Below are positions 2,193 through 37,339 of a stretch of DNA of 45,854 nt, one piece after another. The position numbers and the translations under genes were made by a program. Each line of letters opens with the position of its first letter. The first letter of the stretch is position 1. The notes beneath the pieces were generated by a model that saw nothing but the letters and a program-made list of their open reading frames with translations, made no database searches and had not been told where the DNA came from. Source of the stretch: Deltaproteobacteria bacterium GWC2_42_11 (GTDB lineage: Bacteria; Desulfobacterota; GWC2-55-46; UBA9637; GWC2-42-11); assembly GCA_001797495.1 (NCBI GenBank), contig MGPS01000006.1:6057-51910 (forward strand), given 5' to 3'.

Positions 2193-2852
2193 GTGGAAAA
2201 AACATGGGTTGAAAAGACAGGTTATGGGTTACAGGTTATAGGTTATGTGTTATTAGTAATAGGTTGCGGATTTTTCCTATCATCTATCACCCATCACCCA
2301 TCGCCTGCTTTTGCAGACATATATTCATATACTGACGACAGGGGTGTAATACATTTTTCCAATGTCCCCACATCCAATAACAACTGGCGTGTCAAGATAA
2401 AAGAGGAGCATTTTGATTCAAGGAAACTTTCGCTTGGAGGGCACGACAAACTTATATATAAGGCTGCAGAAATCCACGGTATTGACCCCCTTCTGATCAA
2501 GGCTATAATAAGGGCAGAATCAGATTTTGACCCTTCTATAGTTTCTAATAAGGGTGCAGTGGGGCTTATGCAACTTATGCCAGGCACAGCAGGTGATATG
2601 GGTGTTGACAATGCATTTGACCCTGTACAGAATATAGACGGCGGTGTAAGGTATCTGAAAAAACTTATCGGGATGTATAAATCAAACCTGCTCCTTGTGC
2701 TTGCAGCGTATAATGCAGGCGAGGGGGCTGTCCGGAAATATAAAGGTATTCCGCCGTACAGGGAAACACAGGACTATGTCAGAAAGGTTTTACAGCATTT
2801 TAAGGCATACAAGAATGCAGAAAATACATCGCTTAAAGTGGCAAACAGATAA
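2193..2852 (+). CDS. Lytic transglycosylase (SLT domain) with N-terminal DUF4124-like region and signal peptide
   Basis: AFADIYSYTDDRGVIHFSNVP (DUF4124-like); IKAIIRAESDFDPSIVSNKGAVGLMQLMPGTA...LAAYNAGEGAV SLT motifs. Confidence 0.9.
   Translation: MEKTWVEKTGYGLQVIGYVLLVIGCGFFLSSITHHPSPAFADIYSYTDDRGVIHFSNVPTSNNNWRVKIKEEHFDSRKLSLGGHDKLIYKAAEIHGIDPLLIKAIIRAESDFDPSIVSNKGAVGLMQLMPGTAGDMGVDNAFDPVQNIDGGVRYLKKLIGMYKSNLLLVLAAYNAGEGAVRKYKGIPPYRETQDYVRKVLQHFKAYKNAENTSLKVANR
2220..2303. repeat. Heptad array, 12 in-phase 7-mers, inside lytic transglycosylase signal peptide
   Basis: GGTTATG GGTTACA GGTTATA GGTTATG TGTTATT AGTAATA GGTTGCG GATTTTT CCTATCA TCTATCA CCCATCA CCCATCG. Confidence 0.9.
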
Positions 2853-2873
2853 CTACGGTTACCCTCTACAGAG

Positions 2874-3431
2874 ATGTCAAAAGACATATGGAACATACCA
2901 AACATCCTTTCCCTTTCAAGGATTGCAGCAGCGCCATTACTTATAATCCTGCTCATAAACCCCGGTAAATACTCAAGCATACTTGCTGCTGTTATATTCA
3001 GCATTGCGGCGCTTACAGACTGGCTTGACGGTTATCTGGCAAGACGGATGAATATTTCAACTGTGCTGGGTAAATTTCTGGACCCCCTTGCGGATAAAGT
3101 GCTTATAATAACATCTCTCATAATGCTGATATCTGCAGGAAGGGCGCCTGCGTGGATGGTAAGTCTTATTGTGGGGAGGGAGATTGCTGTTACAGGGCTT
3201 CGGGCAATCGTGGCAAAAGAAGGTATTACTATCGCAGCGAGCAGTCTTGGGAAGCACAAGACAACATTCCAGATAGCAGCGGTAATTGCACTCATTATAC
3301 ACTACCCTTTTTTTAATATTGATTTTCACGCAGTAGGCTTAATACTGATATGGATTGCACTTGTCTTTACATTATGGTCGGGGGTTGACTATTTTGTGAG
3401 GTTCTTGAAGACAATAGAAACTGCCAAATGA
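2874..3431 (+). CDS. pgsA: CDP-diacylglycerol--glycerol-3-phosphate 3-phosphatidyltransferase
   Basis: WNIPNILSLSRI; ALTDWLDGYLARR...LGKFLDPLADK CDP-alcohol phosphatidyltransferase motif. Confidence 0.95.
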   Translation: MSKDIWNIPNILSLSRIAAAPLLIILLINPGKYSSILAAVIFSIAALTDWLDGYLARRMNISTVLGKFLDPLADKVLIITSLIMLISAGRAPAWMVSLIVGREIAVTGLRAIVAKEGITIAASSLGKHKTTFQIAAVIALIIHYPFFNIDFHAVGLILIWIALVFTLWSGVDYFVRFLKTIETAK

Positions 3432-3440
3432 CAACACCTT

Positions 3441-3468
3441 CAAAACTCTAAACTCATAACTCAAAACT
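3441..3468. repeat. Heptad array (4 units)
   Basis: CAAAACT CTAAACT CATAACT CAAAACT between convergent genes. Confidence 0.8.
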
Positions 3469-3473
3469 GATTT

Positions 3474-3986
3474 TCAGTGGCGCCCCTTTTGCGTTACCAT
3501 CTTTCTTGCTGTTGTGGCAAGAACGTTTGATACATTTTTGCTTTTGGACAGTTTCTGGAGGTCCTTTTCTACGAGATGACCAAGAAGTTTAAGTGCAATG
3601 CCAAGAGGTGTTTTCGGGTTTTCAACCAGTCCGAGTTTGATACTGTAATTCCTTGTCCACTCCTTGTTGTTCGCAATTATGCGGAGTATCTCGTCAGAGA
3701 TATTTCTTGAATTAATAACCTTAAGTATTTCATCCTCTCCGATCCTTGGGTTTTTTATAACAGCAATTGCAACGAGTTTGTTTGAGTCTTTTATCAGGAC
3801 TTCCCTTGCCTGTTTATTCCCGAGGGTCGCAAGTTTTATCTTTTCTGCAACAGACATTTCCTGTACCCTGCTGTACAGACCTGATGTCTCGGGTTTCTGT
3901 GCACCTTCCCCCTTTTCTTCCACGAGGTCTTTATCAAACCCCGCTATCTCTTCTGGATTTACAGTTGTTATATCCTCATCAGGCAT
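3474..3986 (-). CDS. Conserved hypothetical protein, helical HEAT/LRV-like
   Basis: Start placed at MPDEDITTVNPEE (ORF upstream part is repeat-derived); helical repeats such as AIAVIKNPRIGEDEILKVINSRNISDEILRIIANN. Confidence 0.65.
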   Translation of the reverse strand: MPDEDITTVNPEEIAGFDKDLVEEKGEGAQKPETSGLYSRVQEMSVAEKIKLATLGNKQAREVLIKDSNKLVAIAVIKNPRIGEDEILKVINSRNISDEILRIIANNKEWTRNYSIKLGLVENPKTPLGIALKLLGHLVEKDLQKLSKSKNVSNVLATTARKMVTQKGRH

Positions 3987-4034
3987 AATAAACCTCCGAT
4001 ATGGGTTACCCAAAAAAATGCAGTTGCATTTTTT

Positions 4035-4076
4035 GGCAGTTGACAATTGGCAACTGCAAACTGCCAATTACAAACT
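4035..4076. repeat. Heptad array (6 units) with in-phase sense switch
   Basis: GGCAGTT GACAATT GGCAACT GCAAACT GCCAATT ACAAACT. Confidence 0.85.
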
Positions 4077-4092
4077 TTAACAATCAGGTTTT

Positions 4093-6186
4093 TTATTTTT
4101 TCTCATGTGCATCCCGTGCTGCCTTCGCTGCATTTATTATCTTCTGTGCCAGATGTGTCGGCACCTCCTCGTAGTGTGAAAAGTCCATTGTGAACATCCC
4201 TCTGTCCCCTGTCATGCTTTTTAAATCAGAGGCATAACTAAGCATCTCTGACATGGGCGCTGCTGCCTTTATTGCATGGCTGTTTGCCTTTGGTTCAACG
4301 CCGTGGATCTTGCCACGCCTGGAGTTCAGGTCACCGATAGCATCTCCAAGGTTTTCATCAGGCACAGTTATCTCCATAGACATGATAGGCTCTAACAATA
4401 CAGGATGCCCCATTTCCATACCTTTTTTAAAAGCCATTGACCCTGCTATCTTGAAAGCCATTTCAGATGAATCAACAGAGTGGTATGAACCATCGTACAG
4501 AGATGCCCTGACATCAACAACAGGATAGCCTGCGACGACGCCTGCGTGCATTGCTTCTACAATACCCTTTTCTACGGCAGGTATGTACTGCCGCGGTATA
4601 ACCCCCCCTACAATATTGTCTGCAAACTCAAACCCTTTGCCGCGTGGAAGCGGTGACAGTTCAATCCATGCATCGCCGTATTGTCCCCTGCCGCCCGACT
4701 GCTTCTTATATCTGCCCTGAACCTTTACAGAAGAGCGGACGGTTTCTTTGTATGGCACCTTCGGGGTCTGCAGGACCACATCAACACCGTATTTCCTTCT
4801 CAGTCTTTCTACAGCAATTTCGAGATGTGTCTGCCCCACGCCAGAGAGGATAAACTCTTTTGTTTCATCGCCCCTTGTGAACTTTAACGTTGTATCCTCG
4901 TCCATAAGTCTTATTATAGCAGGGTGAAGTTTGTCTTCGTCGGATTTTGTTTTAGGCGCTATTGCGTATGAAAGAACTGCATTAACAGCAGGTATGCCGG
5001 GGAATACCACAGGATGCCCCTCATCGCACAGGGTGTCGCCGGTGGATGTTTCTTTAAATTTACTTACAGCCACAATATCACCTGCACCGGCTATACTTAC
5101 CTCTTTAAGTTTTTTACCCATAACCAGATACAGGTGGCTTATCTTTTCCTTTGTATTTTTAGTGGAATTAAGAATGCTAGAGTCAGATTTAATCTTGCCT
5201 GAATATATGCGGAAGATGCTGAGTTTCCCTGTAAATGGGTCAATGGTTGTTTTGAATACAAACGCTGAGAACGGTTCTTCAAAGGAAGGATGTCTTTCGA
5301 CCTCCTCACCTGTTACAGGATTTTTACCCTTTATTACACCGCGCACAACACCCTTTTCCAGCGGTGAGGGGAGGCAGAGGTCTATCATGTCCATGAGAGG
5401 CTGTACGCCGATGTTTTTAAATGCAGAGCCGCAGAGTACAGGCACAAATCTTCTGGAGAGGGCGCCCTCCTTCAGACCCGTTTTAATTTCATCTATTGTA
5501 AGTTCTTCTCCGTTTAAATACTTTTCTGTAAAAGCGTCATCTGTTTCAGCGATTGCCTCAATCATATGCTCACGCATGCTTTTTGCCTCTGCCATGAGTT
5601 CGCCTGGTATCTCTTTTATTTCATAATTTCCTGACAAATCATTTTTATATACCAGCGCCTTCATCTGAAGGAGGTCTATAACCCCTTTAAAATCCTCGCT
5701 GCTCCCTATGGGTAGCTGCACAGGCACGCCTTTTACATTAAGCACCTTTTCCATATCATCAACAGCCCTTATGAAGTTTGCAAATTCCTTATCCATCTTG
5801 TTTACAAATGCAATCCTTGAGACAGCGTATTCGTTTGCAAACCTCCAGACCTCCTCTGTCTGCACCTTTACACCCGAGATTGCAGAGAGTATGACAACAG
5901 CGCCGCCTACTACTGTAAGGCAGTTTTCTGTTTCGGGTATAAAATTAGAATAACCGGGTGTATCAATAATATTCACAGAATATTTGTCCCATTCATAGTG
6001 ATGGACTTTTGCAGACAGGGTTATCTTTCTTTTAATCTCCTCAGGCTCAAAATCAAGCATTGATGAACCGTCATCTACTCTGCCTAATTTATCAGTTGCC
6101 TTTGCATTGAAGAGTACTGCCTCTGCAAGGGTTGTCTTGCCTGCACCGCTGTGTGCGATGATTGCAACATTTCTTTTTTTATCCAT
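4093..6186 (-). CDS. Elongation factor G-like protein (EF-G type II-like GTPase)
   Basis: Start at MDKKRNVAIIAHSGAGKTTLAEAVLF; DTPGYSNF G3, NKMD G4 motifs; EF-G domains IV/V (GGRGQYGDAWIELSPL, EPIMSMEITVPDENLGDAIGDLNSRRG). Confidence 0.9.
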   Translation of the reverse strand: MDKKRNVAIIAHSGAGKTTLAEAVLFNAKATDKLGRVDDGSSMLDFEPEEIKRKITLSAKVHHYEWDKYSVNIIDTPGYSNFIPETENCLTVVGGAVVILSAISGVKVQTEEVWRFANEYAVSRIAFVNKMDKEFANFIRAVDDMEKVLNVKGVPVQLPIGSSEDFKGVIDLLQMKALVYKNDLSGNYEIKEIPGELMAEAKSMREHMIEAIAETDDAFTEKYLNGEELTIDEIKTGLKEGALSRRFVPVLCGSAFKNIGVQPLMDMIDLCLPSPLEKGVVRGVIKGKNPVTGEEVERHPSFEEPFSAFVFKTTIDPFTGKLSIFRIYSGKIKSDSSILNSTKNTKEKISHLYLVMGKKLKEVSIAGAGDIVAVSKFKETSTGDTLCDEGHPVVFPGIPAVNAVLSYAIAPKTKSDEDKLHPAIIRLMDEDTTLKFTRGDETKEFILSGVGQTHLEIAVERLRRKYGVDVVLQTPKVPYKETVRSSVKVQGRYKKQSGGRGQYGDAWIELSPLPRGKGFEFADNIVGGVIPRQYIPAVEKGIVEAMHAGVVAGYPVVDVRASLYDGSYHSVDSSEMAFKIAGSMAFKKGMEMGHPVLLEPIMSMEITVPDENLGDAIGDLNSRRGKIHGVEPKANSHAIKAAAPMSEMLSYASDLKSMTGDRGMFTMDFSHYEEVPTHLAQKIINAAKAARDAHEKK

Positions 6187-6216
6187 CAGGACTTCCATAC
6201 ACACCTCCTGTGTAGT

Positions 6217-6702
6217 TTATAGTTCAGATTCCTCCCTTTTCTTCCTGCCTAAAATATTCGGTATTATTCGTCTGAACAATATGCCGATGTATTTGTTTAT
6301 AGGGTTTGACCTTGCCATGAACGGGATTATAGGTTTTGCCCTTATACCCATCTTTTCAAGTTCTTTTTTGATCCCCTCGTTTTTTTTGTCTATCCTTAAC
6401 CCTTTCCTGAATGTGTTTATGGCGCTCTGTTTCTTCCCTGCCTTTACAAATGCCTTTCCAAGGTTAAGGTAATATTCGCTCCTGAAAAACTCTGTCCTTA
6501 TGGCACGGGTGCAGAGTTCAAGACCTGTTTCAATATCTTCCGTGTAAAGTGCGATACAGAGTCCGTAATATGAAATATATCTTGCAGTATTGCTGTTGGA
6601 TTCATAAGCCTTTCTGAAAGCCTCAAACGCATCAGGAATGTTATCTTTTGCAAGAAAAGAGAGTCCGTTCTTAAAGTGTTCCTCGGCAGTGTCCATTCCC
6701 AT
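6217..6702 (-). CDS. TPR repeat protein
   Basis: TPR-like repeats (AEEHFKNGLSFLAKDNIPDAFEAFRKAYES; SEYYLNLGKAFVKAGKKQSAINTFRKGLRID). Confidence 0.75.
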   Translation of the reverse strand: MGMDTAEEHFKNGLSFLAKDNIPDAFEAFRKAYESNSNTARYISYYGLCIALYTEDIETGLELCTRAIRTEFFRSEYYLNLGKAFVKAGKKQSAINTFRKGLRIDKKNEGIKKELEKMGIRAKPIIPFMARSNPINKYIGILFRRIIPNILGRKKREESEL

Positions 6703-6706
6703 CTGT

Positions 6707-7509: not shown

Positions 7510-7537
7510 AGTCCTAAATTAACAGTCCTAAATTAAC
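7510..7537. repeat. Perfect 14-bp tandem duplication (2 x 7 nt)
   Basis: AGTCCTAAATTAAC AGTCCTAAATTAAC. Confidence 0.8.
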
Positions 7538-7611: not shown

Positions 7612-7620
7612 TTAGGCACA

Positions 7621-9058: not shown

Positions 9059-9063
9059 CAGGT

Positions 9064-9135
9064 GAGTTAATGGGTTGAAGAGTTAAAGAGTTAAGGAATT
9101 AAACCCTCAACTCCTAAACCCCTGAACTCTACAAC
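9064..9135. repeat. Octad array (9 in-phase 8-mers) with sense switch
   Basis: GAGTTAAT GGGTTGAA GAGTTAAA GAGTTAAG GAATTAAA CCCTCAAC TCCTAAAC CCCTGAAC TCTACAAC. Confidence 0.85.
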
Positions 9136-9145
9136 TGGAGTTGAC

Positions 9146-9490: not shown

Positions 9491-11490
9491 AAGAATCCAA
9501 TATATGGCTTAAGTTTCGTATATTTACCGTCCTCATGCTGTTTTTTGCAGCGTTCATGGTTGTTTTTGTACGTGCATTTCAACTTCAGGTTGTGGAACGG
9601 GAGAAACTTAGAACTATTGCATCAAGGCAGTATTTTAAAGAGGTTACGCTTGTTCCTAAACGGGGCGCAATATTTGACAGGAATATGAAAGAACTGGCTG
9701 TTTCCACAGACGCGGTTTCTGTTTATGCACAACCTGAACGTATAGAAAATCCGAGAGAGGTTGTTAATGTCCTTGCCCCTGCTATCCCGATGGACAGAAG
9801 GGAGTTAATGGAAAAGATAAACAGGAACAGGCAGTTTGTGTGGATAAAGAGGAAGGTTGATTTCCATGCTGCAGAAAGACTTAAGGGTTTAAACCTGGAT
9901 GGGATAGGTGTTTTGACGGAAAATAAAAGATTTTATCCTAACCTGCAGCTCGCAAGCCATGTTATTGGTTTTGCAGGAATTGACTCAAACGGGCTTGAGG
10001 GGGTGGAGCGCAGGTTTGATGATTACCTGAAGGGGAATGCTTACAGGATAGTAGATGAACGGGATGCACATGGTGAGGCGATAATAAAGAATAACATTGA
10101 CAGGGATGCTGCAGCGAGAGGCATGGATATTGTCCTGACGATTGATAAGGTCATCCAGTTTATAACAGAGAAGGAACTGAACAGGGCTGTTGCATCAACA
10201 AGGGCAAAAGGAGGGGTGGCAATAGTTATGGACCCCAGGACAGGCGAAGTCCTTGCAATGGCAGTCTCCCCGGTATTCAACCCCAATTTGTTCTGGGAAT
10301 ACAGTCCCCGCTTCTGGAGGAATACAGGGGTTGCAGATGTATTTGAGCCAGGCTCAACATTCAAGTCTTTTCTTTTGTCAGCAGTTTTTGAAGAAGGTAT
10401 TGCTGCACCAACTGACAGGTTTTTTTGTGAAGATGGTGTGTACAGGGTTGGTGACAGAACAATTCACGATGCCCATAATAAAAGATACGGCTGGCTGACT
10501 GTTACAGACATAATAAGACATTCCAGCAATATAGGCGCAGTAAAGATCGGCGAAAAACTGGGGAAGGAGAAGTTCTACAGATACCTTAAGGAGTTTGGTT
10601 TTGGCTCAAAGACAGAGATAGATATGCCGGGTGAAGCGTCAGGTAATATGCCGCATGTTAAAAAATGGTCAAAGGTAACGCTTGGCACAATATCTTTCGG
10701 TCAGGGGGTGTCTGTTACAGGTATGCAACTTGTTACTGCATTTTCTGCTATCGCAAACAAGGGATATTTAATGAAACCGATTGTTGTCAAAAGTGTTATT
10801 GACAGGGATGGTAAGGTTGCAAAGGAATTTAATCCCGAAGTCAGAAGACGTGTTATAAGCGAAGAAACAGCGGTGAAGGTTACAGAGGTTTTAAAAGAGG
10901 TTATAAAAGAAGGCGGGTCCGGTGTAAAAGCAGCGGTAGACGGTTTTGAGGTTGCCGGCAAGACAGGAACAGCGCAAAAGCCTGACCTTTCAGCAGGCGG
11001 ATATTCAGAGGGGAGGTATATAAGTTCATTTATCGGTTTTGTCCCGGCTGATAACCCGAGAATCACTATCCTTGTTCTGATTGATGAGCCACGTGGTGAG
11101 TTTTACGGTGGTCAGGTTGCAGCACCTGTATTCAGAGAGATTGCAAGACAGAGCCTCCCGTATCTTGGTGTTTATGTGAATGGGAGAGTAGTTAAAGCAA
11201 GCAGCCTTATCCCCGGTATCGAGTATGAGGCAGACTCTGCAAAGATTGCCCCTGCAGTAGTAAGCAGGGGTATTAAGCAGGGAGATGAGATAGTCGATGA
11301 CCATTCTTCTGGCGGAAACGCATATATAATGCCTGATCTGGCAGGCAAGACTGTAAGACAGGTATTGAAGATATCAAGGGAGATACCGCTGGAGGTAAGG
11401 GTTGTGGGGAGCGGGAGGGCATTTCATCAGGACCCAATGTCGGGTGTGAGAATTATCCCAGGTGCTGTCTGTGAGGTGTGGTTCAGGTAA
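9487..11490 (+). CDS. ftsI: Peptidoglycan D,D-transpeptidase FtsI (PBP3-like) with C-terminal PASTA domain
   Basis: PKRGAIFDRN; EPGSTFKSF; HSSNIG; AGKTGTAQKP; PASTA-like MPDLAGKTVRQVLKI. Confidence 0.95.
   Translation: MKESNIWLKFRIFTVLMLFFAAFMVVFVRAFQLQVVEREKLRTIASRQYFKEVTLVPKRGAIFDRNMKELAVSTDAVSVYAQPERIENPREVVNVLAPAIPMDRRELMEKINRNRQFVWIKRKVDFHAAERLKGLNLDGIGVLTENKRFYPNLQLASHVIGFAGIDSNGLEGVERRFDDYLKGNAYRIVDERDAHGEAIIKNNIDRDAAARGMDIVLTIDKVIQFITEKELNRAVASTRAKGGVAIVMDPRTGEVLAMAVSPVFNPNLFWEYSPRFWRNTGVADVFEPGSTFKSFLLSAVFEEGIAAPTDRFFCEDGVYRVGDRTIHDAHNKRYGWLTVTDIIRHSSNIGAVKIGEKLGKEKFYRYLKEFGFGSKTEIDMPGEASGNMPHVKKWSKVTLGTISFGQGVSVTGMQLVTAFSAIANKGYLMKPIVVKSVIDRDGKVAKEFNPEVRRRVISEETAVKVTEVLKEVIKEGGSGVKAAVDGFEVAGKTGTAQKPDLSAGGYSEGRYISSFIGFVPADNPRITILVLIDEPRGEFYGGQVAAPVFREIARQSLPYLGVYVNGRVVKASSLIPGIEYEADSAKIAPAVVSRGIKQGDEIVDDHSSGGNAYIMPDLAGKTVRQVLKISREIPLEVRVVGSGRAFHQDPMSGVRIIPGAVCEVWFR
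11246..11283. repeat. In-frame palindromic repeat (CCCCTGC...GCAGGGG), copy in ftsI
   Basis: TTGCCCCTGCAGTAGTAAGCAGGGGTATTAAGCAGGGA; last 27 nt identical to 23481-23507 in ftsQ. Confidence 0.9.
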
Positions 11491-11491: not shown

Positions 11492-13042
11492 ATGAAGTTG
11501 AAGGAGTTAATAGGTGTCCTGCCTTCAGGGCAGATGTTGAATACGCTGAAGGGATGGGAAATGGAGGTGGATATCAAAGGTATTGCATATGATTCCAGAG
11601 AGGTGAAGGATGGATATCTGTTTGCTGCACTCCATGGCAGGGATACAAACGGCCGTCGTTTTATCCCCGACGCGGTAAGAAATGGCGCTGCTGCAATCCT
11701 GGCAGAGGAAATGGGCAGCGGCACCACCATACCGCAGGTCATTGTTACTGATGCAAGAGAGTCTATGGCGAAACTTGCATGCAGGTTTTTTGGAGACCCT
11801 TCAAAGGAACTTGTCCTTATAGGTGTTACAGGTACGAACGGGAAGACAACAACAACATATCTTATTGAGTCAATACTTAGGCAGGCAGGGTTTAAGCCGG
11901 GTGTCATAGGCACAATAAACTACAGGTATATAAATATGGTATTTGATGCGCCGCATACAACCCCTGAAGCGCCTGACCTGCAGAAGATATTAAGAGATAT
12001 GGCTTCAAGCGGAGTAACGCACTGCATAATGGAAGTTTCATCACATGCCCTTTCGCAGAAGAGGGTTGATGGGTGTAATTTCTTGTGCGGCATATTTACA
12101 AACCTTACACAGGAACACCTTGATTACCACGGCACCATGGGAGATTATTTCAGGAGCAAGGCAAGACTGTTTGAAGAATTTCTCCCGTATTCAGAAGGCA
12201 GTTCGTTTGCTGTAATAAACATTGATGATGATTGGGGGGGGGGTATCAAAAGGGATGTATCTGTACACACGATAGAATACAGTCTGCATAAGGGGGCTGA
12301 TGTATATCCTGATGATGTAAAATTTTCAGACAGTGGTATTGATGCCGTGCTTTCAACACCGATGGGCAGGATGCATATCTCGTCAGTGTTGCTTGGGCAA
12401 TACAACCTCCAGAATATAATGGCTGCAGCATGTGCGGGGATAGGTCTTGGAATAAGTATAGATATTATTAAGAAGGGGGTTGCAAGCCTCAATCGTGTAC
12501 CGGGAAGAGTAGAAAGGATATCGTCAAAACCTGGATTCCATGCAGTTGTTGATTATGCACACACAGGTGATGCCCTTTTTAGGCTGCTCACCACAATAAG
12601 GAATCTGGCAAAGGCAAGGGTTATAACAGTATTTGGCTGCGGTGGAAACAGGGACAGAGGAAAAAGACCGATTATGGGTGAGGTTGCGGCAAGGCTGAGC
12701 GATATTGTAATCATTACATCCGATAATCCGAGAAACGAAGACCCGCTTGAGATTATCAGGGAAATAGAAAAAGGGATAAAAACAGGGGTCAAAAAGGTTT
12801 CAATTGAAGAATTTGCTCAGCACTCAGCACTCAACACTCAACACTGTTTTTATGCAGTAATCCCTGATAGGAGAGAGGCTATTGAAAAGGCTGTAAACAT
12901 TGCAAGGAAAGACGACTTTGTCGTTATTGCAGGCAAAGGGCATGAGAAGTGCCAGATTACAGGGGATAGTAAAATACTATTTGATGATGTTGAAGAGGTG
13001 AAGAGGGCGATCCGTGCCATGGAGCAGAAATGTTTAAACTGA
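11492..13042 (+). CDS. murE: UDP-N-acetylmuramoyl-tripeptide synthetase family ligase MurE
   Basis: [54 protein letters not shown]. Confidence 0.96.
   Translation: MKLKELIGVLPSGQMLNTLKGWEMEVDIKGIAYDSREVKDGYLFAALHGRDTNGRRFIPDAVRNGAAAILAEEMGSGTTIPQVIVTDARESMAKLACRFFGDPSKELVLIGVTGTNGKTTTTYLIESILRQAGFKPGVIGTINYRYINMVFDAPHTTPEAPDLQKILRDMASSGVTHCIMEVSSHALSQKRVDGCNFLCGIFTNLTQEHLDYHGTMGDYFRSKARLFEEFLPYSEGSSFAVINIDDDWGGGIKRDVSVHTIEYSLHKGADVYPDDVKFSDSGIDAVLSTPMGRMHISSVLLGQYNLQNIMAAACAGIGLGISIDIIKKGVASLNRVPGRVERISSKPGFHAVVDYAHTGDALFRLLTTIRNLAKARVITVFGCGGNRDRGKRPIMGEVAARLSDIVIITSDNPRNEDPLEIIREIEKGIKTGVKKVSIEEFAQHSALNTQHCFYAVIPDRREAIEKAVNIARKDDFVVIAGKGHEKCQITGDSKILFDDVEEVKRAIRAMEQKCLN
12818..12845. repeat. 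Heptad array (4 units) in frame in murE
   Basis: CAGCACT CAGCACT CAACACT CAACACT, encoding QHSALNTQH. Confidence 0.9.
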
Positions 13043-15526: not shown

Positions 15527-16929
15527 ATGAGACGCAAAAAACTAAAAGCGAAAAACGAAATGACCTGAAAGGCAAACGGGTTCTTATTGTAGGTTTTGCG
15601 TGCACAGGGCTTTCAATAGTAAGGTTTTTAAAAAAGAAAGGCGCAATCGTTACCGTAACGGACTCAAAACCAATAGGTCAGTTGAAGGGCATACAGGAGG
15701 TTATGGGTGACCCTGCTCGGCGGGGTGAAGGCATCAGGGTTGAAGCAGGCGGACATCCGAAAGAGATTTTTATGGATGCAGATCTTATAGTTATGAGTCC
15801 GGGTGTGCCTATGACCATAGAGCCTGTAAATGAAGCAAGAAAGGCAGGCATAGATATTATGAGCGAGATAGAACTCGCATACAGTTTTATAGATGCGCCA
15901 ATCATTGCTGTAACAGGCACAAACGGGAAGACCACTACAACAGCGCTTCTTGGAAGGGTTTTGCGGGATGCCGGCAAGTCTCTTTTTGTAGGCGGGAACA
16001 TAGGCACGCCGCTTATTGAGTATGCCATGGGAGATGAGAGTTATGACTATGCAGTCGCAGAGGTCAGTAGTTTCCAGTTAGAGGGGATAAGGAGGTTCAG
16101 GCCATTTATATCTGTACTGCTTAATATTACGGAAGACCATATGGACAGGTATAGAGACTTTAAGGAATATGCGGAGGCAAAATTTAATATCTTCAGAAAT
16201 CAGGGTGAAGGGGATATCGCGGTTGTGAATATAGATGACCCTGCTATAAGGGAATGGATTAAAGACAACGGGGCAGGGTTTAAGGCAAGGGTTATCCCGT
16301 TTAGCAGCAGGAAGATGCTTTCAAGGGGTGTGTATTTTACAGGGAAAGAGATTGTATATTCGAAAAACGGTTCCAGTGCAGTTTATCCAACAGCCGAATT
16401 TAAATTAAAGGGCATACATAATATAGAAAACATAATGGCTGTAATAGCAGTTGCAAAGGAGTGCGGGATTGACGACAACAATATCCTGAATAGTGTGAAT
16501 AATTTCAGCGCCCTCCCGCACAGGGTGGAGTTTGTAAGGGAGTTAGACGGTGTTTTATACTACGACGATTCAAAGGGGACGAACATAGGTGCGCTGCAGA
16601 AGAGCCTTGCAGGGTTTGAACCGCCCATCATACTTATAGCAGGCGGTAAGGACAAGGGTGGTGATTACAAGGTATTAAGGGACTTAGTAAAGGAAAAGGT
16701 AAAACTCCTGATTTTGATAGGTGAGGCAAGGGACAAAATGAAGTCTGCACTTGGCGGCTGCACAGAGCCCCTGATCGCTTCATCAATGGAAGATGCTGTC
16801 AGGGAGGCATACGAAAATGCAGAGAAAGGGGACATTGTATTGCTTTCGCCCGCATGTTCCAGTTTTGATATGTTTCGGGATTACAAAGAAAGAGGCGATG
16901 TTTTCAGGAGATTGGTTGAGGCGCTGTAA
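15523..16929 (+). CDS. murD: UDP-N-acetylmuramoyl-L-alanine--D-glutamate ligase
   Basis: [63 protein letters not shown]. Confidence 0.96.
15531..15565. repeat. Degenerate heptad array at murD 5' end
   Basis: GACGCAA AAAACTA AAAGCGA AAAACGA AATGACC, encoding [12 protein letters not shown]. Confidence 0.55.
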
Positions 16930-17013: not shown

Positions 17014-17055
17014 CTCAAGACCCCAGACTCAAGTCTTAAGTCTTATGTCTGGTTC
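17014..17055. repeat. Heptad array (6 units) upstream of ftsW
   Basis: CTCAAGA CCCCAGA CTCAAGT CTTAAGT CTTATGT CTGGTTC. Confidence 0.75.
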
Positions 17056-18161: not shown

Positions 18162-19244
18162 TTGAGGGTAATACTTGCGTGTGGAGGCACTGGGGGGCAT
18201 TTGTTCCCTGCAATTGCCCTGGCAGAGGCATTAAGGGATAAAGATGAAAAGTGCAGCATATTGTTTATAGGAAGCAAGAAGGGGCTGGAAGAGAAGGTAT
18301 TATCCAGATATGGTTTTCCGCTCAGGACACTTGAGGTCTATGGAATAAAGGGGAAGGGTATATTTGATAAATCGTTCTCTTTTTTAAAGGCAGGTCTGGC
18401 GACAATAAGTTCAGTGGGGATGATAAGGGAGTTCAAGCCTGATTTTGTGATAGGCACAGGCGGTTACTCTTCAGGACCAGTTGTAATTGCAGCGAAGGTT
18501 ATGGGGATAAGGACAGCAATACTTGAGCAGAACACACTACCAGGTGCAACAAACAGGTTCCTTGGCAAATATGTTGACAGAGTATTCCTTGCCTTCCCTG
18601 AGACCGTCAGATTTTTCAGGACTGAAAAGGTCGTGGTCGCAGGAAACCCTGTCAGAAAGGAGATACGAGAAATCTCAAAACTCAAAACTCAAAACTCAGA
18701 ACGCAAAACTATTCTTGTATTCGGCGGAAGTCAGGGGGCAAAGGCTATAAATTCAATATTTCTGGACTCGCTTAATTATCTTAAAGACAGGTTTGATTTG
18801 CACATTATACACCAGACAGGCGAAGAGGATTATGAAAGGGTAATGGAGGTATATGATAAATTTCAAATTTCAAATTTCAAATTTCAAATTTTTAGATTCA
18901 TTGATGATATGGCAGGGGCATACAGTAAGGCTGATATAGTTATATGCAGAAGCGGAGCAACAAGCATTGCAGAGATTACAGCAATAGGTAAGGTGTCCAT
19001 ACTCATACCTTACCCGTATGCGTCAGATAACCACCAGGAGGTTAATGCGAGGTATTTGTCAGATAAAGGCGCTGCAATAATGTTGAGACAGGAAGATATA
19101 AAAGGAGAAAAACTTGCAGAGGTCATTATAAGGCTCTATGAAAGTAAAAATGAATTACAGGAGATAGGAGAAAGGGCTTTGAAACTCGGCAATCTAAATG
19201 CAGGGAGTATTATAGCAGAAGAGATTTATGCATTAGGCAGTTAA
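18162..19244 (+). CDS. murG: UDP-N-acetylglucosamine--N-acetylmuramyl-(pentapeptide) pyrophosphoryl-undecaprenol N-acetylglucosamine transferase
   Basis: ACGGTGGHLFPAIALAEAL; GTGGYSSGPVVIAA; EQNTLPGATNR; FGGSQGA; RSGATSIAEITA; TTG start. Confidence 0.96.
   Translation: MRVILACGGTGGHLFPAIALAEALRDKDEKCSILFIGSKKGLEEKVLSRYGFPLRTLEVYGIKGKGIFDKSFSFLKAGLATISSVGMIREFKPDFVIGTGGYSSGPVVIAAKVMGIRTAILEQNTLPGATNRFLGKYVDRVFLAFPETVRFFRTEKVVVAGNPVRKEIREISKLKTQNSERKTILVFGGSQGAKAINSIFLDSLNYLKDRFDLHIIHQTGEEDYERVMEVYDKFQISNFKFQIFRFIDDMAGAYSKADIVICRSGATSIAEITAIGKVSILIPYPYASDNHQEVNARYLSDKGAAIMLRQEDIKGEKLAEVIIRLYESKNELQEIGERALKLGNLNAGSIIAEEIYALGS
18670..18711. repeat. Heptad array (6 units) in frame in murG
   Basis: AAATCTC AAAACTC AAAACTC AAAACTC AGAACGC AAAACTA, encoding ISKLKTQNSERKT. 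Confidence 0.92.
18858..18892. repeat. Heptad array (5 units) in frame in murG
   Basis: AAATTTC x4 + AAATTTT, encoding KFQISNFKFQIF. Confidence 0.92.
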
Positions 19245-19288
19245 GAGTTTCGGGTTTAGAGTTAACTCAAGACTAGAGACTGAGAATA
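19240..19288. repeat. Heptad array (7 units) across murG stop / murC leader
   Basis: GTTAAGA GTTTCGG GTTTAGA GTTAACT CAAGACT AGAGACT GAGAATA. Confidence 0.8.
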
Positions 19289-19291: not shown

Positions 19292-20707
19292 ATGTATAAA
19301 GGGAAGATAAAACATATACACTTTGTCGGCATAGGCGGGATAGGGATGAGCGGGATTGCCGAGGTGCTCATAAACCTTGGTTACAGGGTTACAGGTTCGG
19401 ATATGAAGATATCTGAAGCAACGAAGAGGCTTGAGAGACTCGGCGCTGTCATACATATATCGCACAGGGGGAAAAATATAAACGGCGCTGATGTAGTTGT
19501 CTATTCATCTGCTGTGAAGGAAGATAACCCTGAGATAGAGGCAGCACACGAGATGACAGTACCTGTTATACCGCGGGCAGAGATGTTGGCAGAACTTATG
19601 CGCATGAAATACGGGATAGCGATTGCCGGCACACACGGCAAGACAACTACCACATCTATTATAGCAACAATACTGGGCAGTTCAGGGATGGATCCGACAG
19701 TTGTTATAGGCGGAAGGCTGAACAGCATAGGGACAAATGCGAGGCTTGGCAAAGGCGAATTCCTTGTTGCAGAGGCTGATGAGAGTGACGGTACATTTTT
19801 GAAACTATCTCCCACAATTGCAGTTGTTACAAACATTGATCCTGAGCATATGGATTATTATAAAGACATGGATGAGGTAAAAAATGCATATCTCTCTTTT
19901 ATAAACAAGGTTCCGTTTTATGGCTGCTGTGTCCTGTGCCTTGACCATCCGAATGTTCAGGCACTCATATCCAGGGTGGAGAGGAAACATATTACCTATG
20001 GACTGACTGCGCAGGCAGACTGTCATGCAAGGGGTATAGAATTTAAAGGGATGGAGACATCCTTTGAGGTATGGAACAGGCATGAATCTCTCGGGAGGGT
20101 TACAATACGGATACCCGGTATTCACAATATTTACAACTCACTTGCAGCAATTGCTGTGGCAATTGAACTGGGACTTAATTTTGAAGATGTAAAGAATGCA
20201 TTGGCTGGTTTCAGCGGAGTAGAACGGAGGTTCCAGATAAAAGGTATTGTCAATAACATAACAGTTGTTGACGATTACGGGCATCACCCTGCTGAAATAA
20301 GGGCGACACTTAAGGCTGCAAAGGACGGGTGGGGGAAGAGGATTGTCGCTCTATTCCAGCCTCACAGGTATACACGGACAAAAGACCTGTATGAGGACTT
20401 CCTTTCTGCATTTTATGATGCGGATGTCCTGATACTTACAGACATATATCCTGCCGGTGAAGAAAAGATTGAAGGCGTTTCAAGCGAGGCGCTGTTTCAT
20501 GGAATCAAGGGGTATGGGCACAGGGATGTTACATATATACCTGATAAGAAGGATGTGCCTGCACATCTCGCAAAGATAGTTAGGTCAGGCGATATGGTCA
20601 TTATAATGGGTGCAGGTGATATATGGCAGACAGGGGAGGAGATATTAAAGCAGATGGGACAAAAGGCAGGGGTCATGGGTCAATTGTTAAATAGTTTTAA
20701 GTTGTGA
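19292..20707 (+). CDS. murC: UDP-N-acetylmuramate--L-alanine ligase
   Basis: [62 protein letters not shown]. Confidence 0.97.
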
Positions 20708-20755
20708 GTTATGAGTTGAAAACTAAAAACCAAAAACTAAAAACTCAAAACTGTT
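20693..20755. repeat. Heptad array (9 units) spanning the murC stop / murB start
   Basis: AGTTTTA AGTTGTG AGTTATG AGTTGAA AACTAAA AACCAAA AACTAAA AACTCAA AACTGTT. Confidence 0.92.
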
Positions 20756-21660: not shown

Positions 21661-22627
21661 AAAAATTACAAATTACAAATTACGAATTTCAAATTTAAAG
21701 AAAAGGCGCATAGGTGTGCTGATGGGGGGCATGTCCTCTGAAAGGGAGGTGTCTATCCGTTCAGGCACCGCTGTATATAATGCGCTTATAGAGAATGGAT
21801 ACAAGGCAATACCTATAGATGTCGGCAGAGATATAGCAAGGATTATTGAAAAGAAAAAGATTGATGCTGTGTTTATTGCACTTCACGGCAGGTATGGCGA
21901 GGATGGTACAATACAGGGACTTCTTAAGATGATGGGGATACCTTATACAGGTTCGGGTGTGCTTGCGAGTGCTCTTGCCTTTGATAAGGCAGCAGCAAAA
22001 GAGATTTTCTGTTTTCATAATATACCAACCTCTGAATTTACAGTAGTAAGGGGTAAAGAGAGAGTAAAGGATGTCCTCCCGCTGCTTCCTGTTGTTGTGA
22101 AACCTGCGAGAGAGGGTTCAACAATAGGCGTCACAGTAGTAAAGAATAAAAGGTTATTGAAAAAGGCAGTAGATATAGCAAGAAGGTTTGACAGCAAGGT
22201 TGTTATAGAGAGATTTATTGCAGGAAGAGAACTTACTGTGAGTGTCCTGAATGGGAAGCCTTTACCTGTTATAGAGATAAGACCCAAGAAGGGACTGTAC
22301 GACTACAGGTCAAAATATACAAAGGGTATGACCGAATACATTTTACCTGCCTGCCTTAATAAGAAACTGGAGGAGAAGATAAAGGTGATAGCGATAGAGA
22401 CGTATAATTCCATAGGGTGCAGTGGCGCAGCAAGGGTTGATGTGATGCTTGATTGCAATGATAAGCCTTACGTGCTTGAAGTGAATACAATTCCGGGCAT
22501 GACAGAGTTGAGTCTTTTACCAAAGGCTGCAGATTTTGCAGGCATAAGTTTCCCTCAACTTGTTGAGTATATGCTTATTGACGGGATAAGATGGAGAGAA
22601 ACCTCTGGGCGCGGGCAATATGATTAG
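21644..22627 (+). CDS. ddl: D-alanine--D-alanine ligase
   Basis: RRIGVLMGGMSSEREVSIRSG; ALHGRYGEDG; PYTGSGVLASALAFDK; EVNTIPGMTELSLLPKAA; start uncertain. Confidence 0.95.
   Translation: MWGRTRKITNYKLRISNLKKRRIGVLMGGMSSEREVSIRSGTAVYNALIENGYKAIPIDVGRDIARIIEKKKIDAVFIALHGRYGEDGTIQGLLKMMGIPYTGSGVLASALAFDKAAAKEIFCFHNIPTSEFTVVRGKERVKDVLPLLPVVVKPAREGSTIGVTVVKNKRLLKKAVDIARRFDSKVVIERFIAGRELTVSVLNGKPLPVIEIRPKKGLYDYRSKYTKGMTEYILPACLNKKLEEKIKVIAIETYNSIGCSGAARVDVMLDCNDKPYVLEVNTIPGMTELSLLPKAADFAGISFPQLVEYMLIDGIRWRETSGRGQYD
21663..21697. repeat. Heptad array (5 units) in ddl 5' end
   Basis: AAATTAC AAATTAC AAATTAC GAATTTC AAATTTA. Confidence 0.9.
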
Positions 22628-24764: not shown

Positions 24765-24827
24765 GAATTGAAAATTGCAAATTGAAGATTGGAAATTTTA
24801 AAATTTACAATTTCCATTTTACAATTC
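24765..24827. repeat. Heptad array (9 units) in the ftsA-ftsZ intergenic region
   Basis: GAATTGA AAATTGC AAATTGA AGATTGG AAATTTT AAAATTT ACAATTT CCATTTT ACAATTC, followed by hairpin CTCGC-AAA-GCGAG (24827-24839). Confidence 0.92.
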
Positions 24828-33027: not shown

Positions 33028-33032
33028 TACTA

Positions 33033-33157: not shown

Positions 33158-33188
33158 GATGTCAATTTGTTTAATGCGTTTGTACTAG

Positions 33189-33265
33189 GTAGTTGGCAGT
33201 AGGCAATTGACAGTTGGCAGTAGGTATTTGGCAGTTGTGCAAACTGCCAACTGCAAACTGCAAAC
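33189..33265. repeat. Heptad array (11 in-phase units) with sense switch
   Basis: GTAGTTG GCAGTAG GCAATTG ACAGTTG GCAGTAG GTATTTG GCAGTTG TGCAAAC TGCCAAC TGCAAAC TGCAAAC. Confidence 0.95.
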
Positions 33266-33273
33266 TGGAAGCA

Positions 33274-34785
33274 TCACGATACCTCATATTGTTCCTGATG
33301 GAAGTTGCTGACCGTTTTAATAAACACCTTTTTCTTAAACCTCTGCTCCAGTTCTTCCACGACCTTTGATTCATCACTGTATAAGAGGCCTGCGATTACA
33401 GGGTTGACATACACATATATCTTCCTTCTGCGTATCCGCGGGAGTTCTTTAACAAGTTCCCTGTATATTGCCATTATAGTTGTTATGCCTGATTTTATGA
33501 TGCCGCTCCCTTCACAATAATGACAGGGTTTGCAGAGTACCTTTGACAGATTATCCCTAACGCGCTTCCTTGTCATTTCAACAAGCCCGAGTTCAGAAAC
33601 TTTGAGTATATTTGTCCTTGCCCTATCACCTTTTAATGCCTCTTTAAGTGCATTATAAACCTTTTCGCGGTGAGCCTCTTTTTCCATATCTATAAAGTCA
33701 ACGACGATTATACCGCCTATGTTTCTGAGCCTCAGTTGATATACAACCTCCTTTACAGCCTCAAGATTTGTCTTTAATACAGTTTCTTCAGGGGTCTTTT
33801 TGCCAACATATTTCCCTGTATTCACATCTATTGCAGTAAGAGCCTCTGCCTGGTCTATGATTATGTAGCCGCCTGATTTAAGCCACACCTTCCTTTCAAG
33901 TGCTGCTGAAATTTCGACCTCAATGCCCCGTGAATCAAATAAAGGTTCAACACCATCATAGAATTCCACATACGGTTTCAGATAAGGGAGGAAGTCTTCT
34001 ACAAATCTCAAAGCCCTTTTGTATTCTTCTTCGGAGTCTATAATAAGTTTGTCTATATCTGATGTGAACTGGTCTCGTATTGTCCTCATGGTTATATCAA
34101 GGTCATGATACAGTGGCGCAGGCGCTGAAGTCTTTCCCTTACGTCTCAGGATATCGTCCCAGAGTTTTACAAGATATTCCATATCTCTTCTTATATCCTG
34201 TTCCTTCATTCCATCGCATGCAGTCCTTATTATAAAGCCGCAGTCAGGCGGCTTTAAATTCAATACAATATCCTTAAGCCTCTTCCTCTCCTTTTCATTG
34301 GATATCCTCCTTGATACGCCTATGCGGTTATCAGTTGGCATAAGGACCAACTGCCGTCCTGGGAGAGATATATGAGATGTTATCCTTGCGCCCTTTTCAC
34401 CAATCGGTTCCTTTGCGATCTGGACAAGTATCTCCTGCCCTTCCTTAATTATATCCTGAATCGGGGTTTTCCTTGCAGTCTTAAGTCTTGCACCTGTGTC
34501 AGGTTCTTCTTCTTCCGATGATTTTATGAATTCGTCAAAGTCCTCAAGTCCGTGGTACACATCTGCTGCATGGAGGAAGGCTGTCCGTTCGAGGCCCATA
34601 TTAACAAATGCAGCCTGTATACCTGGCAGTACCTTTTCCACCCTCCCTTTATAGATATTCCCGACAATGCTCCTGTCCTTTGCCCGTTCAACATAAAATT
34701 CCACAAGTCTTCCTGACTCAAGGAGAGCGACCCTTGTTTCAAACGGGTTATAGTTTATGAGTATCTCGTTTTTGTTTCTCGGCAT
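33274..34785 (-). CDS. rng: Ribonuclease G/E family endoribonuclease
   Basis: ILINYNPFETRVALLESGRLVEFYVER; GNIYKGRVEKVLPGIQAAFVNMG; TAIDVNTGKYVGK; GIIVVDFIDME; CHYCEGSG. Confidence 0.95.
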   Translation of the reverse strand: MPRNKNEILINYNPFETRVALLESGRLVEFYVERAKDRSIVGNIYKGRVEKVLPGIQAAFVNMGLERTAFLHAADVYHGLEDFDEFIKSSEEEEPDTGARLKTARKTPIQDIIKEGQEILVQIAKEPIGEKGARITSHISLPGRQLVLMPTDNRIGVSRRISNEKERKRLKDIVLNLKPPDCGFIIRTACDGMKEQDIRRDMEYLVKLWDDILRRKGKTSAPAPLYHDLDITMRTIRDQFTSDIDKLIIDSEEEYKRALRFVEDFLPYLKPYVEFYDGVEPLFDSRGIEVEISAALERKVWLKSGGYIIIDQAEALTAIDVNTGKYVGKKTPEETVLKTNLEAVKEVVYQLRLRNIGGIIVVDFIDMEKEAHREKVYNALKEALKGDRARTNILKVSELGLVEMTRKRVRDNLSKVLCKPCHYCEGSGIIKSGITTIMAIYRELVKELPRIRRRKIYVYVNPVIAGLLYSDESKVVEELEQRFKKKVFIKTVSNFHQEQYEVS

Positions 34786-34789
34786 AGCG

Positions 34790-37339
34790 CTATCCTATCT
34801 TCAGAATTTTAAGACCTGATGCTGCATCCTTTGATATACTGAACACATGACTTATAACCTCTTGAGGTTTTGCGCTCCCCTTTTCTCCTGCTGCAATAGT
34901 CAACTGAATCACGGGCAATGTTTCCTCTGTAAATCCCCCACCCTTAAATAATTTAATATCTTTTACGAGCGCCCTGATGTCAACCTCCCTTTCTCTATCC
35001 CCACGCTGCTGGTGTATCACAGCCCTGTCTCTTTTCATGAAAGATTCAATAGCGCCCTCGCATGCATGTACTGTCAAACCAGCATCCTTTATAAACGCAA
35101 GATATATATTTTCTTCTGTCTTACTTAAAGAACGAGGATGTTTCAATGGTATTTCTATGGTGTCAATTATTTTTATACCATGCGGGAGTTCTTCGTGCAA
35201 CTTTATCTTTACATCTTCAGGTTTAATATATCTATCCATTTCAATATCAACCTGCTCTGCCAGACTCTCTATGCCAACAGACAGAGGGCTTAAGAAGACA
35301 ATCCCAGGAAGGGGATGGAACCCTTTTGAATATTTTATCGGCAGACCTGCCCGCCTGATTGCCCTTGAGAATACTGAAATAAGTTCAAGGTGACCAAGGT
35401 ATTTCATATTATCTGTCTTGGAGAATTTGAGTCGTATCTTAGAAGATAAAGAGTTTCGGGTTTCGGGTTTAGAGTTTCGGGTTTCGGGTCTCGAAACCAG
35501 AGACTTGATTGCTGGGACAGGTTTAATTGCCTTAAAATCGCACACACCGCATGCACTGCATCTATCTGTTCCCTGCTTAATACCTGCTGGGACAGGCTTA
35601 CAGTCAGGTGTTTCCTTGCCTGAAAGAGAAAACATATATTCGCTTACAAGAAAGTCTTTTTCAACACCTGTATCAAGATGGTCCCATGGAAATAGTTCTT
35701 TGAAATCCCGCGCCCGTGTATAAGAGTCTATACTTACATTGTGCTTTTCAAATGCCATCTCCCAGAGTCCAAATTTGAATTCCTCACCCCAGCCGTCAAA
35801 ACGGCATCCTGCCTCGAATGCAGTCTTTATAACAGGTGCAAGTCTTCTGTCCCCCCTTGAGAACACGCCCTCCATAAGGCTCATACTGGCGTCATGCCAT
35901 TTGAATTCAAGTCTCCTTTTTTTTAACTCCTTCCGCAGAAATGCCTGTCTTTCCCTGCATTCAGATACTGTAATCTGTTTTTCCCACTGAAACGGTGTGT
36001 GAGGCTTTGGTATGAATGTAGAGACAGCAACATTTACCTGAGGTCTGAAACCAAGTCCTTTCCCTGTCTTGAGAACCCTTTCTGATAATTCCACAATCGC
36101 CTTAACATCATCTATGGTTTCTGTTGGAAGTCCTATCATATAGTAGAGTTTTATTGAACGCCAGCCCATCTCAAATATAAACTCTACTGCCTTTATAAGG
36201 TTATCTTCGCTTGTGAATTTATTTATTACACACCGGAGCCTTTCTGTGCCTGCCTCAGGTGCAAGTGTAAATCCTGTTTTTCGTACCCTTTTTATCTCTG
36301 CTGCGAGTTCTGGCGTAAGGGTACCGACGCGTAAAGATGGAAGTGATACAGCGACTTTTTTTTCATATAATTTACCCATCAATTCAAGCATCAGATAATC
36401 CATGCAGGAATAATCACCGGCGCTTAATGATAGAAGTGAGACTTCGTCATAGCCTGTGTTCTTTAGCCCCTCTTCAACAATTTTCAGGATATTTTCAGGG
36501 GTACGTTCCCTTGAAGGTCTGTAGATAATCCCTGCCTGACAGAACCTGCATCCCCTTGTGCATCCCCTTGTTATCTCTACTGCGAACCTGTCATGGATTG
36601 TCTTTGTAAAAGGCACAACAGGTTTAACAGGCAGAGGTGTATTGTTTAAATCAGGTATTATGTTTTTTTTTATTTTGTTATAACCCTGAATAAGAGGTCT
36701 TATATTGCTGAATGTCCCGTTGCTGTTATATTCGGGCTCAAAGAACAAAGGCACATAAACACCTTCAATTTGAGCAAGACTCTCAAGCAGGGACACTTTC
36801 CTTTCCCCTTTCCCCTTCCACTCAATGACAGTATCTGAAATTTTCAGGACAACCTCTTCACCATCACCGAGCACAAATGCATCAAAGAAATCTGCTACTG
36901 GTTCGGGATTAAATACTACAGGACCGCCGCCTATTACAACAGGGAATCTTTTATCCCTGTCCTTTGAATAAAGGGGTATGCCGCCCAGTTCAAGCATATT
37001 CAGGATATTTGTGTAAGAGAGTTCATACTGGAGCGAAAAGCCCAGTATGTCCAGATTATTTAAAGGAATATTTGATTCAAGTGTTGAAAGAGGGATATTT
37101 TTAGAGCGGAGCATCCTCTCCATATCTGCCCATGGCGCATAGACCCTTTCGCAGGCAATATCAGGATGGGCATTTAAAATCTGATAGAGTATCTGTATGC
37201 CGAGATGGCTCATCCCAACATCGTAAACATCAGGGAAGGCGAGGCAGAATTTTAATTTAACCTTTGATAAGTCCTTTTTTTGAGAATTTATCTCACATCC
37301 GATATATCGGGATGGTCTTGAAATATTACCCAACCGCAT
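34790..37339 (-). CDS. TIGR03960 family B12-binding radical SAM protein with C-terminal DUF2344 (TIGR03936) domain
   Basis: CLAFPDVYDVGMSHLGIQILY; EITRGCTRGCRFCQAGIIYRP; LAPEAGTERLR; C-terminal LRFSKTDNMKYLGHLELISVFSRAIRRAGLPIKYSKGFHP. Confidence 0.93.
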   Translation of the reverse strand: MRLGNISRPSRYIGCEINSQKKDLSKVKLKFCLAFPDVYDVGMSHLGIQILYQILNAHPDIACERVYAPWADMERMLRSKNIPLSTLESNIPLNNLDILGFSLQYELSYTNILNMLELGGIPLYSKDRDKRFPVVIGGGPVVFNPEPVADFFDAFVLGDGEEVVLKISDTVIEWKGKGERKVSLLESLAQIEGVYVPLFFEPEYNSNGTFSNIRPLIQGYNKIKKNIIPDLNNTPLPVKPVVPFTKTIHDRFAVEITRGCTRGCRFCQAGIIYRPSRERTPENILKIVEEGLKNTGYDEVSLLSLSAGDYSCMDYLMLELMGKLYEKKVAVSLPSLRVGTLTPELAAEIKRVRKTGFTLAPEAGTERLRCVINKFTSEDNLIKAVEFIFEMGWRSIKLYYMIGLPTETIDDVKAIVELSERVLKTGKGLGFRPQVNVAVSTFIPKPHTPFQWEKQITVSECRERQAFLRKELKKRRLEFKWHDASMSLMEGVFSRGDRRLAPVIKTAFEAGCRFDGWGEEFKFGLWEMAFEKHNVSIDSYTRARDFKELFPWDHLDTGVEKDFLVSEYMFSLSGKETPDCKPVPAGIKQGTDRCSACGVCDFKAIKPVPAIKSLVSRPETRNSKPETRNSLSSKIRLKFSKTDNMKYLGHLELISVFSRAIRRAGLPIKYSKGFHPLPGIVFLSPLSVGIESLAEQVDIEMDRYIKPEDVKIKLHEELPHGIKIIDTIEIPLKHPRSLSKTEENIYLAFIKDAGLTVHACEGAIESFMKRDRAVIHQQRGDREREVDIRALVKDIKLFKGGGFTEETLPVIQLTIAAGEKGSAKPQEVISHVFSISKDAASGLKILKIG
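35451..35506. repeat. Heptad array (8 units) in frame in radical SAM linker (minus-strand gene)
   Basis: GAGTTTC GGGTTTC GGGTTTA GAGTTTC GGGTTTC GGGTCTC GAAACCA GAGACTT; encodes SLVSRPETRNSKPETRNSL. Confidence 0.93.
35569..35596. repeat. In-frame palindromic repeat, copy in radical SAM linker
   Basis: Minus strand CCTGTCCCAGCAGGTATTAAGCAGGGA. Confidence 0.8.

Follow-up and report, generated by a model that had tools for sequence, protein, structure and literature searches.

How do tandem arrays with a strict period of 7 nucleotides (nt), each built from its own unit, come to lie inside essential genes, and how do they change there? The question is raised by a stretch of 45,854 nt from the uncultured Deltaproteobacteria bacterium GWC2_42_11 (assembly GCA_001797495.1, contig MGPS01000006.1, positions 6,057 to 51,910), hereafter the window, whose genome we label G000. 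An original prediction, made from the letters of the window, had described a dispersed family of degenerate period-7 arrays seeded through core genes and gene junctions. Judged from aligned sequences of related species, these arrays are evolving in concert at fixed length. The reading that we prefer, with a probability of roughly one half, is that tracts of ~33 nt, not selected for coding, would be rewritten where tolerated by copying at an offset of 7 nt or, less often, 8 nt.

We scanned the window by lag autocorrelation (match +1, mismatch -1.5), with 60 dinucleotide shuffles as the control. The excess of period 7 proposed by the original prediction was present: at a score of at least 12, lag 7 gave 12 segments totaling 435 nt against a shuffle mean of 0.02 and maximum of 1, and, multiples of 7 aside, the other lags gave 0-2 segments each. 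Relaxing the score to at least 9 gave 17 lag-7 segments in the window versus 0.30 in shuffles. Genome stretches amounting to 957 of the 1751 kb of G000 contained 79 segments at lag 7 with a score of at least 15, 6 at lag 8, and 0-3 at each of the remaining basic lags. No lag-7 excess remained outside the arrays once these were masked, which implies that the process does not act diffusely throughout the DNA.

The 125 arrays of this genome use 80 distinct 7-mer units, in keeping with the earlier view that each locus has its own unit and that the common feature is the period rather than one copied sequence. Near-perfect period-7 arrays had a median length of 31 nt (quartiles 25-33), and those internal to open reading frames (ORFs) had a mean of 32.8 ± 4.5 nt. 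In the genome sample, 47 arrays were ORF-internal, 46 were intergenic, and 28 lay at ORF starts, the start-site classes being approximate because ORFs were called mechanically; this agrees with the proposed placement in core genes and junctions. The A+T-biased AACT/AGTT vocabulary attributed to the arrays is loosely true (A 0.39, G 0.27, T 0.22, and C 0.12 on the purine-rich strand). No vocabulary was shared across lineages, the overlap between unit sets being about that of random draws. Peptides that had been pointed to in related lineages proved to be merely three-frame read-outs of the DNA unit, not conserved between species.

Arrays were found at matching core-gene positions in ten related species, namely in murD, murE, murF, murG, aroC, proS, purL, and hisIE. 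The murG interdomain linker carries AAAACTC in the window and AAAGGCG, AAGTCAA, CAGAAGT, or the 8-mer GAAACGGA in relatives, and the murD site carries AAATCTC, AACTCTC, AACTCAA, AATTCAA, or AATTCGA. There are three array sites in aroC with several units at each, and proS, purL, and hisIE behave alike. Arrays occupy interdomain linkers, such as murG residues 170-183 and HisIE residues ~138-147, the latter between HisI (34-141) and HisE (152 onward). Orthologue alignment thus displays turnover of units at fixed sites, with arrayless outgroups of equal length at several of them, and supports the expectation of in-frame arrays in core genes subject to a process acting locus by locus.

Net length differences at in-gene sites clustered at 0, 3, and 6 nt between pairs of species, which share ancestry and hence are not independent. 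Zero difference was seen in 38 of 56 same-unit pairs and a difference of 21 nt in none, and 93 of 148 different-unit pairs differed by 0, 3, or 6 nt, with 3 differing by 21 or 42. The murD region measures 54 nt from anchor to anchor in 8/8 array species and 5/10 outgroups. Site 2 of aroC is 69 nt long in seven species with four units and likewise in the arrayless outgroup og16, and site 1 is 66 nt long in G003, G004, and G008, the same as in arrayless og11, og15, and og16.

These lengths bear on the main rival explanation, slippage with strong filtering, under which arrays would arise and change as 7-nt units are added or lost, as in other simple sequence repeats (SSRs), and selection would afterwards bring frame and loop length back. 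Variation in SSRs is generally attributed to slippage, which would fit the net gains at purL, hisIE, and murE and one frame-breaking copy-number allele in murG of G001. It would also fit the finding that the sister genomes G004 and G008, which have no MutS_V hit, show the highest density of arrays between murE and ftsZ (8.2 and 6.7 per 10 kb at a score of at least 15, others 2.0-5.5). Nearly all relatives have a MutS_V hit, as does the window's genome; G011, from another order, has none. Since G004 and G008 are sisters, their loss counts as one event and is a lead only. However, a 7-nt step in an essential gene is a frameshift, and growth by slippage should make 21 nt the common viable change. 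The near absence of such steps (0/56 same-unit pairs), lengths equal to those of arrayless outgroups at several sites, and a narrow distribution of internal lengths rather than a decaying one do not support growth by slippage, which we consider an unlikely origin. The idea of a locus-specific process that writes or expands units therefore stands as to its local action and is not supported as to expansion, 21-nt steps being almost absent in genes.

The same counts set the arrays apart from phase-variable contingency loci: copy number did not change in unit steps between species, and the hosts are murD, murE, murG, proS, purL, aroC, and hisIE rather than surface or variable genes. In contig C44 of G001, the murG frame is broken exactly at the second array, which has 2.7 copies there and ~4.9 in the window; this is either a copy-number allele or an assembly error.

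Units differed by 0.56 of 7 positions within arrays versus 2.90 of 7 between species in homologous register. Among different-unit pairs, the in-register distance was 3.36 versus 4.72 ± 0.12 when randomized, and none of 2000 randomizations was as low (P<=0.0005); for murD alone the values were 1.02 and 2.54. The conserved register implies that most arrays at one site seem to go back to a single ancestor whose copies changed together; aroC holds exceptions resembling replacement. The claim of a new unit at each site accordingly holds with a qualification: units do differ, but those found in different species mostly derive, in matching register, from a single ancestral array, and some arrays moved between species along with short flanks.

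Such exchange is visible most clearly in purL of G001 and G009 (different families) and in aroC of G004 and G009 (different genera), where identical arrays lie inside a near-identical patch of ~100 nt and the remainder of the gene shows background identity. The 60-nt flanks exceeded the rest of the gene in identity by 7.3 points in 11 same-array pairs, against -0.4 in 182 different-array pairs (P=0.00014, computed on non-independent pairs). This suggests that short-tract recombination carries arrays between species. A gene-sized counterpart was seen in murF, which is 97% identical between G005 and G010 where neighboring genes are at 73-85%, indicating recombination between genera.

Comparison across species shows that sites are old, positions are conserved, copies are homogenized, register is mostly and length nearly fixed, and patches are sometimes exchanged. 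A transient misalignment of the template by one unit could produce this pattern: a strand would slip 7 nt, copy, and slip back, so that a base change would pass from one unit to the next with the array's length unaltered. Repair of a looped heteroduplex would be an alternative route to homogenization. The same misalignment across a fold-back would yield the matched arms of an array and its anti-array at junctions. Arrays would be kept to linkers, loops, termini, and junctions by purifying selection acting on frame and loop length, which would also eliminate alleles with net 7-nt changes; short-tract recombination would afterwards spread units among species. No dedicated enzyme is implied, and any function of the arrays themselves is probably slight or absent.

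Several points weigh against rewriting by offset copying, beginning with the shared ancestry of the species pairs. The misalignment step is one that we infer from sequences, and it gives neither an account of how an array first originates on non-repetitive sequence nor a reason for 7 over another number. A few loci switched from period 7 to 8 (murG of G004 versus G008), which concerted drift alone would not give. Net gains occurred at purL (+12 to +24 nt), hisIE (+9 to +21), and murE, and the murG linker is variable; length neutrality is a description of the main mode and not of every site. Finally, flank identity is not always raised, as at one of two aroC sites between G009 and G008 (80.3 versus 82.4).

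We entertain more tentatively an active form of length-neutral rewriting at a 7-nt offset, in which a polymerase or repair pathway would copy a neighboring unit over the next, making and renewing periodic tracts in tolerant DNA of essential genes. If true, rewriting would represent a kind of mutation separate from indel slippage, and it might lie behind the heptamer excess seen across prokaryotes. Our searches turned up no machinery for such writing, and we infer the mechanism. Reverse transcriptase (RVT_1) had no hit in G000 or G001 and sporadic hits in the remaining relatives, and Y1 transposase had no hit in G000, which is rated 100% complete. With no hits in the window's genome, both were rejected as the machinery, and with no reverse transcriptase hit G000 lacks the mark of a diversity-generating retroelement.

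The window itself holds the division and cell wall (dcw) cluster plus flanking housekeeping genes. The dcw genes are, in order, mraZ, rsmH, ftsL (identified by position), ftsI, murE, murF, mraY, murD, ftsW, murG, murC, murB, ddl, ftsQ, ftsA, and ftsZ. The arrays of the window are as follows, scores being at lag 7 unless stated.

2220..2305, plus strand: array GGTTATG/AGGTTAT, 23-nt loop, and anti-array ATCACCC at the upstream end of the SLT (lytic transglycosylase) ORF; scores 14.5 and 14.5; RNA fold z -2.88.
3440..3468, plus strand: AAAACTC-like period-7 array separating the convergent ORFs pgsA and hyp197; score 12.
4033..4076, plus strand: short period-7 palindrome TTGGCAGTTGAC/AACTGCAAACTGCCAA at the hyp197 start; score 10.5; fold z -2.52.
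9063..9138, plus strand: period-8 version GAGTTAAA with a degenerate anti-array at the rsmH-ftsL junction; lag-8 score 14.5; fold z -1.22, not significant.
12816..12845, plus strand: array CTCAGCA/CTCAACA within murE; score 20.5; the site reads CCACATC in G009, AAATCGG in G004, AAATCCG in G007, and AACTCCG in G008.
15531..15565, plus strand: weak array AAAAACG at the murD N-terminus; score 9.5; TRF 34.
17018..17050, plus strand: array AAGTCTT/AGACTC at the murD-ftsW junction; score 13.5.
18670..18709, plus strand: array AAAACTC in murG, residues ~170-183, between two Pfam domains (3-142, 183-335); score 23.
18858..18891, plus strand: perfect array AAATTTC x4.9 in murG; score 27; the orthologous second site has the 8-mer AAGGGTTC in G002 and AAAACTC x2.7 in G001.
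20693..20752, plus strand: array AGTTGTG and anti-array AAAACTA at the murC-murB junction; scores 10.5 and 19.5; fold z -2.91; hairpin arrays of other units in G004, G006, and G008.
21663..21699, plus strand: single-arm array AAATTAC between the murB stop and the conserved ddl start; score 20; other-unit arrays at this place in 7/8 relatives compared.
24766..24826, plus strand: hairpin of array AATTGAA and anti-array TTTACAA at the ftsA-ftsZ junction; score 21.5; fold z -2.84; near-identical version in G001.
33182..33270, plus strand: hairpin of array AGTTGGC and anti-array TGCAAAC between the convergent genes g32 and rng; scores 11.5 and 18.5; fold z -3.72, with 0/200 shuffles folding equally well.
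35453..35493, minus strand: array reading CCGAAAC on the coding strand, inside the radical-SAM/DUF2344 gene; score 21.5.
36800..36817, minus strand: small array CCTTTCC, also in the radical-SAM/DUF2344 gene; score 11.

The last of these was absent from the 16 loci of the original prediction, 13 of which have period 7 (2 weakly) and one period 8. In the lag scan, period 7 was clear at 2220-2303, 3441-3468, 12818-12845, 17014-17055, 18670-18711, 18858-18892, 20693-20755, 21663-21697, 24765-24827, 33189-33265, and 35451-35506, and weaker at 4035-4076 (score 9.0) and 15531-15565 (9.5). The locus at 9064-9135 has period 8 as proposed (score 14.0), not period 7. Two loci were lost: 7510-7537 consists of two copies of a 14-mer (lag-7 score 1, no signal), and 19240-19288 scored only 5.0, within noise.

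Intergenic arrays are often hairpins of an array and an anti-array with mutually matching arms, which is what the prediction had called in-phase sense switching. Periods were equal in 88 of 92 adjacent array pairs, and arm complementarity of period-7 pairs was 10.7 with their own partner versus 5.1 with a swapped one. A junction pair often spans the whole gap from stop codon to next start. The matched arms would suit selected elements that work as RNA or DNA (insulating translation, affecting transcript stability, or binding proteins by spacing), for which sequence would be free and the period fixed. Also consistent with selection are the better folding of five of six window examples relative to shuffles (z -2.5 to -3.7; the sixth, of period 8, z -1.2), an array preceding ddl in nearly all species compared, and the TAACTGA repeats of Beggiatoaceae, which directly precede start codons (PMC4679880). 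In contrast, most in-gene arrays have a single arm and neither of the two tested folds, an Rfam search of the window gave no match, and whether a given junction has an array varies erratically from species to species. A hairpin function is possible for the junction class, and we judge selected elements quite unlikely as the explanation overall. At junctions of G001, G003, G004, G006, G007, and G009, a motif GGAGCGAAGCG(A/G) follows anti-arrays and precedes start codons, for example between murF and mraY; it also occurs inside aroC of G000, and it resembles another repeated element.

Could the arrays instead be miniature mobile elements, similar to repetitive extragenic palindromic (REP) sequences or Rickettsia palindromic elements (RPEs), that inserted at permissive sites and are decaying? 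Permissive linkers do host hairpin inserts CCCTGC..TAAGCAGGG (G003 murG, G010 murD, G007 proS), and Y1 transposase genes occur in 10/10 family- and order-level relatives searched. Yet the arrays have no common sequence and little net insertion, and neither Y1 transposase nor reverse transcriptase gave a hit in the window's genome, making mobile elements an improbable source. REP sequences and their associated tyrosine transposases (RAYTs) are matched no better, as there is no shared palindrome, arm complementarity is locus-specific, and units are diverse. Rickettsia palindromic elements lie in frame in housekeeping genes, as the arrays do; they share sequence and are insertions, whereas the arrays share none and mostly overwrite, with length differences of 0-6 nt and larger gains at few sites.

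The hairpin CCCTGC..TAAGCAGGG is a second dispersed element of ~20-26 nt, with 9 copies in the 957 kb sampled from the window's genome and 7 copies across 507 kb from f2 relatives. Besides the three linkers named above, it occurs at 11250 and 13281 (plus strand) of the window and in murE, murF, and hisIE; it lies in frame in array-bearing linkers, sometimes within a period-7 array. A third type consists of insertions like CCCCCTTTGAAAAAGGGGGA in array loops or junctions of G010 murD, G009 mraY-murD, and G003 aroC.

An assembly artefact of metagenome bins must be weighed as well, given that every genome compared within the order is a draft in 70 to 280 contigs and one allele is frameshifted. 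Independently assembled genomes nevertheless agree in sites and lengths, frames are intact, and the arrays are shorter than a read, so that an artefact is very improbable.

The named genomes closest in FtsW are metagenome-assembled genomes (MAGs) from groundwater, labelled Deltaproteobacteria. Among FtsW-centered loci, arrays are dense in the two families of the window's order and absent or rare in the class's other orders. They reappear in groundwater MAGs of Nitrospinota and a few others, where the murG linker is again arrayed (L014, L019, and L021). Across the phylum, 34 of 395 genomes contain CAGAAGT x3; its spread over many families implies that the trait is patchy and wide. One genome of the same phylum, G285, has 133 CAGAAGT x3 matches, a single very abundant heptamer, in which it differs from the window's genome.

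Heptamers are the commonest intergenic tandem repeats in many prokaryotes, for reasons unknown (PMC6344855, SPADE survey), and a 2007 survey, as cited in PMC4692102, also reports a heptamer excess. The arrays resemble this excess in the dominance of period 7 among short tandem repeats and the lack of known function (PMC6344855, PMC4692102). The excess has been described mainly between genes, whereas the arrays are also in-gene, length-neutral, and turn over their units in conserved register at fixed sites. Like heptanucleotide SSRs or short tandemly repeated repetitive (STRR) sequences, they consist of tandem 7-nt units; unlike them, they do not use one or few fixed units per genome and are not mainly intergenic. 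Xanthomonas GGGAATC and Nostoc GGGGA(T/C)T repeats share the period, and the former also form inverted pairs (70-75 convergent array pairs, with two species sharing 83% of repeat positions), but each genome has one unit of G-quadruplex type in up to 14-26 copies, and Xanthomonas repeats are rarely genic (7-11%) (PMC4692102). Beggiatoaceae TAACTGA repeats have period 7, 2-6 copies, and a place at junctions, but only a single unit in forward orientation, with near-variants rarely repeated (PMC4679880). Geobacter metallireducens, also historically called deltaproteobacterial, has 49 copies of GGGACCG x4, four tandem heptamers in genic and intergenic positions, which form a BLAST-detectable sequence family (PMC2700814), whereas units here differ per site.

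A search limited to open-access papers yielded no account of in-gene arrays that are unit-diverse, length-neutral, and under concerted evolution, and the papers listed for short-patch illegitimate recombination were all off topic. What is new here is therefore the site-conserved, unit-diverse, in-gene, length-neutral arrays, the heptamer excess itself being already known and unexplained. Linker peptides of this kind should be viewed with caution, as read-outs of DNA mutation and not of protein function. The frame and length constraints of essential genes reveal how periodicity evolves: units shift in concert while register and length mostly stay. This separates copy-over from gain and loss and makes the heptamer excess experimentally testable.

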